Source: Acetobacteraceae bacterium
Lineage (GTDB): Bacteria > Pseudomonadota > Alphaproteobacteria > Acetobacterales > Acetobacteraceae
Direction: 5' to 3'
DNA length: 64,000 nucleotides
Assembly (NCBI GenBank): GCA_947455205.1
Contig: CANGNF010000023.1
Coordinates: 1-64,000, forward strand
Positions 32,660 through 38,020 of this stretch are shown here, one piece after another; the stretch's first letter is position 1; every line of letters begins with the position of its first letter. The notes beneath the pieces were generated by a model. It did no database searches. It was not told the DNA's origin and worked only from the letters and a program-made list of their open reading frames with translations. Position numbers and translations under genes: made by a program.

Positions 32660-33496
32660 ATGCCACCGACCAAGCCCACCGCCCATCAGCGCGCCAATGG
32701 CGCCGCCCGCCTGGAATTCGCGGCTGGCCCGCGCGGCACCACGCTGGCCCGGCTGTACCAGCAATCCCCCCTGCGCGTGCTGTTCCCCACGCCGGAACCC
32801 GGCGAGCCGCCGACCGGCGCGCTGGTGAACTGCGCCGGCGGACTGGCCGGTGGCGACGCGCTGGCGACCGAGGCGCTGCTGGGCCCCGGCAGCACGGCCA
32901 CGCTGAGCACGCCGGCGGCCGAGAAGGTGTACCGCAGCCTGGGGCCGGAGACGCGGGTGACGACGCTGCTGCGGCTGGAAGCCGGCGCCACGCTGGAATG
33001 GCTGCCGCAGGAGACCATCCTGTTCGACCAGGCGCGGCTGCGGCGGCGGATGGACGCGCATCTGGGCGAAGGCGCCCGGCTGCTGGCGGCGGAGATGCTG
33101 GTCTTCGGCCGCAGCGCCCGTGGTGAGACGATGCAGGGGGGCCTGGTGCGCGACGCCTGGCGGCTGCACGGCCCGGCCGGGCTGCTATGGGCCGATGGCC
33201 TGGCGCTGGGCGACGACATTGAGGCGCGGCTGCTGGCGCCGCTCGGCTTCGGCGGCGCGGAGGCGGCGGCGACGCTGCTGCTGGCCGCGCCGGGCGCGGA
33301 GGCGCATCTGCCGGCGTTGCGGGCGGCGCTGGAGGGACACCCGGCGGCCGCGACGGTCCCCCGCCCCGGGTTGCTGCTTGCCCGCTTCCTGGGCGATGCG
33401 CTGGCGGTGCGCGATGCAATTGCCGCGGGGATCATCATGCTGCGCCATGCCGCGCTAGGCCAGCCGGCGGTGCTGCCGCGGCTGTGGACGACGTAA
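32660..33496 (+). CDS. ureD: Urease accessory protein UreD
   Basis: A 278-residue protein that binds the apo-urease and, with UreF and UreG, delivers nickel. It shows [20 protein letters not shown], the PLRVLFP block, [22 protein letters not shown] and [12 protein letters not shown], all typical of UreD. I chose ATG 32660, which has a GGGGGC element upstream; an in-frame ATG at 32642 is possible. It is the first gene of the urease operon. The 162-bp divergent gap before it should hold the operon promoter, but I see no convincing -35/-10 or sigma-54 site. Confidence 0.93.
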
Positions 33497-33540: not shown

Positions 33541-34083
33541 ATGCACCTGACCCCGCGAGAGAAGGACAAGCTGCTGATCGCCATGGCGGCGGTGGTGGCG
33601 CGCCGGCGCCTGGAGCGCGGCGTATTGCTGAACTACCCCGAGGCGATCGCGCTGATCACCGACTTCGTGGTGGAAGGCGCGCGCGACGGCCGCAGCGTGG
33701 CCAGCCTGATGCAGGACGGCGCGCATGTGCTGACCCGGGCGCAGGTGATGGACGGCATCGCCGAGATGATCCACGAGATCCAGGTGGAAGCGACCTTCCC
33801 GGACGGCACCAAGCTGGTGACGGTGCACGAGCCGATCCGCGACGCGGTGGCGGCGGTGAAGCCGGCGCGGAAGGTGGCAGCGAAGAAGCCGGTGGCGAAG
33901 GCTGCGGCCAAGCGCGCCACCGCGAAGGCTCCGGCGAAGAAGGCTGCCGTGAAGAAGCCGGCGAAGCGGGCTGCGGCGAAGGCCGCGCCTGCCCGTAAGC
34001 CGACCGCGAAGCCCCCGGCAAAGGCGCCTGCGAAAAAGCCCGCGCCGAAGAAGCCCACCGCGAAGAAGGCGACCCGCCGATGA
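33541..34083 (+). CDS. ureA: Urease gamma subunit UreA with histone-H1-like C-terminal tail
   Basis: A 180-residue protein. Residues 1-100 are a complete, highly conserved urease gamma subunit ([32 protein letters not shown], then [15 protein letters not shown], the normal C-terminus). Residues 101-180 are an extra tail of Lys/Ala/Pro repeats ([26 protein letters not shown]) with 22 Lys and 6 Arg in 80 residues and no acidic residue after D101. Family members normally stop at about 100 residues. The stop overlaps the ureB ATG (ATGA), so the tail is not an artefact of a lost stop between separate genes. The core function is one of three structural subunits of urease. Confidence 0.95.
33841..34080 (+). 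other. H1-like Lys/Ala/Pro repeat tail of UreA
   Basis: This stretch codes residues 101-180. Codon use (gcgaagaagcc-type runs) and composition resemble bacterial histone-H1-like modules such as those of AlgP/PhaF-type proteins, known to bind polyanions. No pairing with another reading frame explains it. It is predicted to be disordered and strongly basic. Confidence 0.85.
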
Positions 34084-34385
34084 TCCCGGGCGAAATCCTG
34101 CCGGCCGCCGGCGAGATCGAACTCAACGCCGGCGCGCCGGTGACGGAGCTGGAAGTGGCCAATACCGGCGACCGCCCGGTGCAGGTCGGCAGCCATTACC
34201 ACTTCGCCGAGACCAACCCGGCCCTGGCCTTCGACCGTGCCGCCGCGCAGGGCCAGCGGCTGGACATCGCCGCCGGCACCGCCGTGCGGTTCGAGCCTGG
34301 CCAGCGCCGCCGTGTGCGCCTGGTGCCGCTGGCGGGAGACCGCGTGGTGCACGGCTTCCGCGGCGAAACCGAAGGGAAGCTCTGA
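34080..34385 (+). CDS. ureB: Urease beta subunit UreB
   Basis: A 101-residue structural subunit with the signature [38 protein letters not shown] and [14 protein letters not shown]; length is standard. It overlaps the ureA stop by four bases and ends two bases before the ureC ATG, giving strict 1:1:1 coupling potential. Confidence 0.97.
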
Positions 34386-34387
34386 CC

Positions 34388-36096
<1,709 letters not shown>

Positions 36097-36100
<4 letters not shown>

Positions 36101-36651
36101 CCGAAGACACGCTTCCCCGCGCGATAAAGGTGCTGCCGGCGGGCGGCTGGGTGGAGCGCACCGCGCGCGACACCGTGACGCTGGACTTCGACGACCGCTT
36201 CCGCCGGCGCCGGCGCTATGTCGGCGCCCAGGGCCTGGCCTTCCTGCTGGATTTGGAGGAGGCGGTGGCGCTGCGCGATGGCGACGGGCTGCTGCTGGAA
36301 GCCGGCGGCGTGGTGCTGGTGCGCGCTGCGCCGGAGCCGCTGGTGGAGATCAGCGCCGAGACGCCGGAGCGCCTGGCACGGCTGGCCTGGCACCTGGGCA
36401 ACCGGCATTTGCCCACCGAGATCCGCGCCGACACGCTGCTGATCCGCGACGACCATGTGATCGTGGCGATGCTGCGCGGCCTGGGTGCGCTGGTGCAGCA
36501 GGTACAGGCGCCGTTCAACCCGGAAGGCGGCGCCTATGGCGAGCACAACCGCCACCATGACCACGCGCATGGGCATGGTCATTCGCACGACCACGGGCAC
36601 GACCACCACCACGACCACTCGGGCGCGCATTCGCACGACCATGAGCACTGA
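36097..36651 (+). CDS. ureE: Urease nickel metallochaperone UreE with His-rich tail
   Basis: A 184-residue metallochaperone that stores and hands nickel to UreG. It starts at a TTG that overlaps the ureC stop (TTGA). The N-terminal domain has [14 protein letters not shown] and [11 protein letters not shown]. The metal-binding core has [11 protein letters not shown] and [15 protein letters not shown]. The last 36 residues contain 18 histidines in HDH and HGH runs, a nickel-buffering tail also known in Klebsiella UreE. Confidence 0.95.
36541..36648 (+). other. His-rich tail of UreE
   Basis: This segment codes the last 36 residues of UreE, of which 18 are His and most others Asp, Gly, Ser or Ala. 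The final bases also contain the ureF start codon at 36641 in another frame. Confidence 0.9.
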
Positions 36652-37327
36652 CAGCGCCGCGCTGTACCGGCTGCTGACCTGGCTTTCGCCGGCCTATCCG
36701 GTCGGCGCCTTCAGCTACAGCCACGGGCTGGAAACCGCGGTCGAGGAAGGCCTGGTGCGCGGGCGCGACGACCTGTCCGGTTACATCGCCACCGTGCTGA
36801 ACCACGGCGCCGGGCGCATCGACGGCGCGCTGCTGGTGGCTGCGCATCGGGCCGCCACGGCCGGCAAGCCGCGCGTGCTGGACCAGGTGGCGCAACTGGC
36901 CGCCGCCTGGCGCGGCACCGCCGAAACCGCGCTGGAGACCATGCAGCAAGGCACCAGCTTCACCAGCATCACCGCCAGGGCCTGGCCGGATGCGCGCTTT
37001 GCCGCCTTCGCCGCGCGGCATGGTGGGCGGCTTTCGCACCCCGTGGCGTTTGGTGCGGTGGCGGGCTTCCAGCGCGTGCCGCTGCTGGCCAGCGTGACCG
37101 CCTGGCTGGCGGCCTTTGCAGCCAATCTGGTTTCAGCCGGCGTGCGGATCGTGCCGCTGGGGCAGACCGACGGGCAGTTGGCCACGGCGGCGTTGCAGCC
37201 TATCGTGGACGCAGCCGCGCAGGCCGCGCTGGCCGCCGACCTGGACGACCTGGGCACCGCGAGCCCGATGCTGGACCTGCTCTCCATGCGCCACGAGACG
37301 CAATACACAAGGCTTTTCAGATCATGA
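36641..37327 (+). CDS. ureF: Urease accessory protein UreF
   Basis: A 228-residue all-helical protein that with UreD and UreG forms the nickel-insertion complex. It shows [20 protein letters not shown], the N-terminal signature, and a C-terminal [19 protein letters not shown] that is the usual UreF end. The start overlaps the end of ureE by 11 bp. Confidence 0.95.

Positions 37328-37400: not shown

Positions 37401-38020
<620 letters not shown>

Follow-up and report, generated by a model that had tools for sequence, protein, structure and literature searches.

A lysine-, alanine- and proline-rich C-terminal tail on the urease gamma subunit in two genera of Acetobacteraceae

Among the closest described systems is AlgP of Pseudomonas aeruginosa, a DNA-binding protein that associates with polyphosphate granules and whose C-terminal domain of KPAA repeats is likened to a histone H1 tail in the paper describing it (PMC9239181). 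According to that source, DNA is bound in vitro both by KPAA peptides and by part of the AlgP tail, and polyphosphate granules depend on this tail for their spacing (PMC9239181). The phasin PhaF of Pseudomonas putida is described as a tetrameric protein with a Lys-rich repeat domain, disordered without ligand, that is thought to tie the polyhydroxyalkanoate (PHA) granule to the chromosome (PMC3574117). Streptomyces topoisomerase I (TopA) is an enzyme to which an H1-like lysine-repeat C-terminus has been added, altering its working; its processivity is attributed to the lysine repeats (PMC7398561). Among ureases, the gamma chain passes residue 100 in gamma-beta fusions, such as Helicobacter UreA and a 206-aa alphaproteobacterial type. 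The UreB of Yersinia enterocolitica is reported to carry extra disordered residues at its N-terminus, outside the enzyme and at the split between UreA and UreB (PMC7547064). Topic searches and broader searches, judged by titles and covering few subscription papers, returned no published description of a lysine-rich or histone H1-like extension of the urease gamma subunit.

Such an extension is encoded in the stretch of DNA analysed here (the window), 64,000 nucleotides from an Acetobacteraceae bacterium. Positions 33541-34083 on the plus strand translate into a UreA of 180 aa, within a urease operon in which ureB and ureC are genes of their own (profile matches PF00699 and PF00449) and with PF01774, UreE, UreF, UreG-type and HupE/UreJ domains around ureA. 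The features of the locus are as follows.

32822..33397, plus strand: UreD domain match (PF01774) in the frame upstream of ureA
33541..34083, plus strand: ureA, urease gamma subunit with C-terminal extension, 180 aa (translation; PF00547 over residues 1-99)
33841..34080, plus strand: Lys/Ala/Pro-rich tail, residues 101-180, with 28 K/R and D101 as sole acidic residue (composition; tails in related genomes; internal repeats)
34063..34069, plus strand: AAGAAGG, Shine-Dalgarno-like, within the final tail codons and 10 bases upstream of the ureB ATG; role predicted (sequence; anti-Shine-Dalgarno energies)
34080..34083, plus strand: ATGA, ureB start over ureA stop (sequence; the 4-base overlap is found in 34 of 35 tailed genomes)
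34080..34385, plus strand: ureB, urease beta subunit, 101 aa (PF00699)
34388..36100, plus strand: ureC, urease alpha subunit, 570 aa (PF00449, PF01979)
36097..36651, plus strand: ureE with His-rich C-terminus (PF02814, PF05194; translation)
36755..37198, plus strand: UreF domain match (PF01730)
37422..37934, plus strand: UreG-type GTPase domain match (PF02492, CobW/HypB/UreG)

The His-rich stretch of UreE comprises about 35 residues of H/D/G repeats. The gamma profile PF00547 spans UreA residues 1-99 over all 99 of its positions (155.1 bits against a cut-off of 23.9), and the chain then runs on to 180 residues in a family whose members usually have 99-100. The codons of residues 101-180 occupy exactly 33841-34080 and specify 30 Ala, 22 Lys, 12 Pro, 6 Arg, 5 Val, 4 Thr and one Asp. 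Thus translation and composition bear out the original prediction of an 80-residue basic tail with 28 basic residues and none acidic after D101, as does the intact coupling to the downstream gene, in which the TGA at 34081-34083 is overlapped by the ureB ATG at 34080. An artefact of assembly or a frameshift is ruled out by in-frame tails with the same ureB overlap in other genomes. A gamma-beta fusion or its remnant is likewise ruled out, as the tail has no PF00699 match and ureB is separate and complete. Nor does the tail belong to the histone H1-like HC2 family (PF07382), for which it reaches 13.4 bits against a curated cut-off of 40 (E 0.087).

With its long, nearly D/E-free C-terminus rich in Lys, Ala and Pro, the urease tail resembles those of AlgP and PhaF in kind, not by descent. 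AlgP, as described, differs in being no enzyme subunit and in the length (154 aa) and greater regularity of its repeat domain, whereas PhaF binds the polyester granule through its N-terminal part and has no kinship with urease. For TopA, DNA is the substrate; urease does not act on DNA. The fusions depart from the ordinary chain at the same point as the window's UreA, but there the continuation is the beta subunit, which in the window is a separate, overlapping gene. The Yersinia extension, by its published account, is 20-30 aa long, lies on UreB and varies in charge (PMC7547064).

The tail is real and, as the original prediction had missed, is a trait of two genera and not a single oddity; in the genome comparison its length is counted from UreA residue 100. 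In the window's genus (g1), ureA is present in all six genomes searched; five of them, the window's included, have basic tails of 69, 81, 98, 99 and 111 aa, and the sixth (G002) has an extension of only 14 aa. The second genus (g102), that of Neoroseomonas soli and N. lacus, gave a match in 34 of 35 genomes; one match at a contig end (G399) was left out, and basic tails of 44-73 aa are present in 30 of the 33 genomes read. Two of these tails are identical to those of database proteins from N. soli and N. lacus, which identifies the family as Acetobacteraceae. The other three g102 genomes (G418, G291 and G413; loci L341, L342 and L343) contain only a divergent, tail-less UreA of about 52% identity, as if the tailed urease had been lost or replaced.

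The gamma family is present in 245 of 397 genomes drawn from the Acetobacteraceae, and UreA ends were read in 186 family genomes of 56 genera, taken from the draw and from the extra g102 genomes. These ends divide into 35 basic tails (5 in g1, 30 in g102), 145 without a tail, four short extensions of 7, 9, 14 and 15 aa, one fusion and one cut end; the census followed the listed places with the best scores first, so that its share of tails is biased upwards, if at all. In 142 family genomes UreA ends at residue 100-105, and no basic tail was found in the 147 genomes read from other Acetobacteraceae genera (one UreA end being cut). Outside the family, the 29 best-scoring of 131 matching genomes, some of whose matches are not UreA, contained no basic tail, one 28-aa non-basic extension and one fusion. 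Non-basic extensions of 7-28 aa at the UreA end occur in other genera (L022, L276 of genus g95, L268, L334 and L240), and Falsiroseomonas selenitidurans has one of the short non-basic forms. Among 80 named loci of GTDB species, 75 stop at residue 100, two are fusions, two have ends of 6 and 15 aa, and a basic tail is present in one, which comes from a genome of a lake metagenome. The expectation that UreA ends near residue 100 therefore holds as a rule, with gamma-beta fusions and short non-basic extensions as exceptions. Of 7999 scored UreA homologues, the 120 best-listed (query included) comprise 94 with basic tails of 29-104 aa, 15 fusions, four ends within 6 residues and seven others. Because basic tails recur at the same place in both genera and in the best-listed homologues, the tail is more than a chance occurrence.

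When the tail was searched against its own genome (94% complete; 150 of 277 first-look candidates scored), it returned itself and four weak matches (E 0.05-1.4), and in open frames of at least 60 residues at those four loci a density of 6 Lys per 40 residues was reached just once. There is thus no support for such tails being widespread in this proteome. Used by itself as a protein query, the tail retrieved nothing but its own sequence and one close UreA among 7998 scored candidates, low-complexity words being limiting, and tail queries from single species revealed no lysine-rich partner family. A DNA repeat-pattern search had no matches and also missed ureA itself, which makes it uninformative. 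In three other alphaproteobacteria (G503, G436 and G744), long open frames match the tail region alone, with 57-75% identity over about 60-75 residues.

In trees of UreABC, from which duplicate entries for one place and rows lacking UreB or UreC were omitted and which retain 29 of the 30 g102 tails, the tails form two groups with good support, g1 and g102, and tail-less genera lie between the two. The 99-row tree needs three changes, as does a tree of 55 of those rows, chosen after the 99-row tree had been seen. Across 200 bootstrap trees the number is three from the 5th to the 95th percentile; two would suffice if the groups were sisters. An AU test against a single tailed clade is borderline (p=0.056), and RpoB does not decide how g1 and g102 are related (p=0.52 for sisters; based on 26 of 30 genomes, which exclude that of the window). 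Either two gains or a single gain followed by losses would fit these sequences. The extensions of 15 and 9 aa in genus g95 begin with RD and are compatible with an ancient short extension that later grew. Imperfect internal direct repeats within the window's tail suggest growth by duplication.

The evolution of the tails was assessed on 35 tails of 2025 residues in total, with the first two residues of each tail dropped. Ala accounts for 36%, Lys for 30%, Pro for 16% and Arg for 7% (together 88%), and Asp plus Glu for 0.3%, or 7 of 2025 residues. Neutral simulations (HKY, kappa 3, 68% GC, 20 replicates), which started from the present tails and left out indels, gave means of 63.5, 107.7 and 134.9 acidic residues at 0.10, 0.25 and 0.50 substitutions per site, and net charges per 100 residues of 28.1, 19.3 and 12.5 at the same distances, against an observed 36.9. 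Pooled Nei-Gojobori dN/dS was 0.19 in the tail versus 0.035 in the core for 17 members of one g102 clade, 0.30 versus 0.017 for three close g1 sequences, 0.36 versus 0.068 for five g1 sequences including those three, and 0.58 versus 0.10 for 13 other g102 sequences, which are poorly alignable. The tail value is below 1 in all four sets, yet 5- to 17-fold the core value; therefore, no particular tail sequence is held. On the strength of the simulations and the dN/dS values, sequence and length appear loose, while positive charge and composition appear to be kept by selection.

Immediately before ureB, the last tail codons contain a sequence resembling a ribosome-binding site, a feature missing from the original prediction. 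Similar Shine-Dalgarno-like stretches stand at the tail ends of related loci, for example L161; in the window the stretch falls within 34060-34083. Duplex energies with the anti-Shine-Dalgarno sequence were computed for the 153 family genomes in which the ureB start was located, ignoring kinship in the group comparison: the median is -7.6 kcal/mol in 35 tailed genomes, -2.2 kcal/mol in 42 tail-less genomes with the 4-base overlap and -6.5 kcal/mol in 72 tail-less genomes without overlap, the remaining four having short extensions. The effect is weaker in g1 (median -4.3 kcal/mol, n=5; -5.2 in the window). Because the energies are stronger than in tail-less genomes with the same overlap, the end of the tail probably provides ureB with its ribosome-binding site as well.

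These data bear on two explanations that assign the protein tail no function of its own. That the extension acts at the RNA level only, equipping ureB with a dedicated ribosome-binding site instead of leaving it to coupling alone, would account for the difference in energies between genomes with the same overlap. A few codons would be enough for this purpose, however, while the tails run to 44-111; G002 has a form of 14 aa, and the effect is weaker in the window's own genus. The amino-acid bias moreover extends over the whole tail, and the choice of Lys codon equals that of the core (AAG in 436 of 601 tail codons and 94 of 134 core codons), so that this explanation is very unlikely, the least probable of those considered. 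A functionless tail, arisen by neutral expansion of low-complexity sequence, would be in keeping with the internal repeats, with a spread from 14 to 111 aa inside one genus (g1), with the short non-basic extensions that other genera have at this position, and with a tail dN/dS far above that of the core. It is nevertheless decidedly unlikely: neutral drift at only 0.10 substitutions per site gives about nine times as many acidic residues as are observed, dN/dS stays below 1, and the tail is kept in all 30 g102 genomes read that have this type of UreA.

Other explanations turn on where the charge acts. By formula (K+R-D-E), UreA residues 1-100 have a charge of -2, the tail +27, UreB -2 and UreC -11, so that an (alpha-beta-gamma)3 trimer would change from -45 without tails to +36 with them; the trimer, presented as given in the original prediction, is itself deduced from the separate ureA-ureB-ureC genes. 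A polycation can shift the pH optimum of an enzyme, and the tails might act as a cloud of positive charge that keeps urease soluble or shifts the pH at the active site (pH optimum, NH4+ exit) rather than as a tether. The switch in sign fits this idea, as does the retention of charge and composition without sequence, but a cytoplasmic polycation is expected to meet RNA or DNA and be neutralised, which makes it unlikely. Polybasic stretches also often bind acidic lipids, and charge attraction through the tail could bring urease to acidic lipids of the membrane or to the cell surface. This is quite unlikely, since hydrophobic or amphipathic residues for insertion are absent from tails made up so largely of Ala, Lys, Pro and Arg, and since those KPAA-type tails whose ligands are reported bind DNA or polyphosphate (PMC9239181).

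The reading preferred here, to which we give an even chance of being right, is that the tail is a flexible electrostatic tether docking urease on intracellular polyanions, be it DNA, RNA or polyphosphate. Three tails per trimer would stand outside the enzyme at the split between the gamma and beta chains, and, by analogy with the described systems, would be disordered and free-standing. An AlphaFold model has the tail without secondary structure, but the model as a whole is too poor to argue for disorder (mean pLDDT 51.9, core included). The avidity of three tails would hold urease on the nucleoid or polyphosphate and concentrate ureolysis there, while the last tail codons would also serve ureB as ribosome-binding site. 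The constrained composition and the likeness to AlgP and PhaF fit polyanion binding, and the urease tail would work in the manner of their KPAA tails, though outside those families. For urease as such the tail is dispensable, since G002 has just 14 extra residues and 142 family genomes end at residue 100-105. A more speculative and rather unlikely extension of the tether is that in the two genera of Acetobacteraceae urease, a soluble metabolic enzyme, is gathered by the three polybasic tails of each trimer, together with polyphosphate or the nucleoid, into a condensed local ammonia-producing compartment, whose assembly would be switched by the level of polyanion, for example polyphosphate made in starvation.

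In the papers cited here, bacterial polybasic tails belong to proteins that handle DNA or granules. The seam between gamma and beta chains emerges as a natural site for added peptides in urease, and the tail represents a coding extension whose end likely also supplies the following gene with its ribosome-binding site. If true, a tail conserved in composition on urease would mean that electrostatics can suffice to position a housekeeping enzyme.
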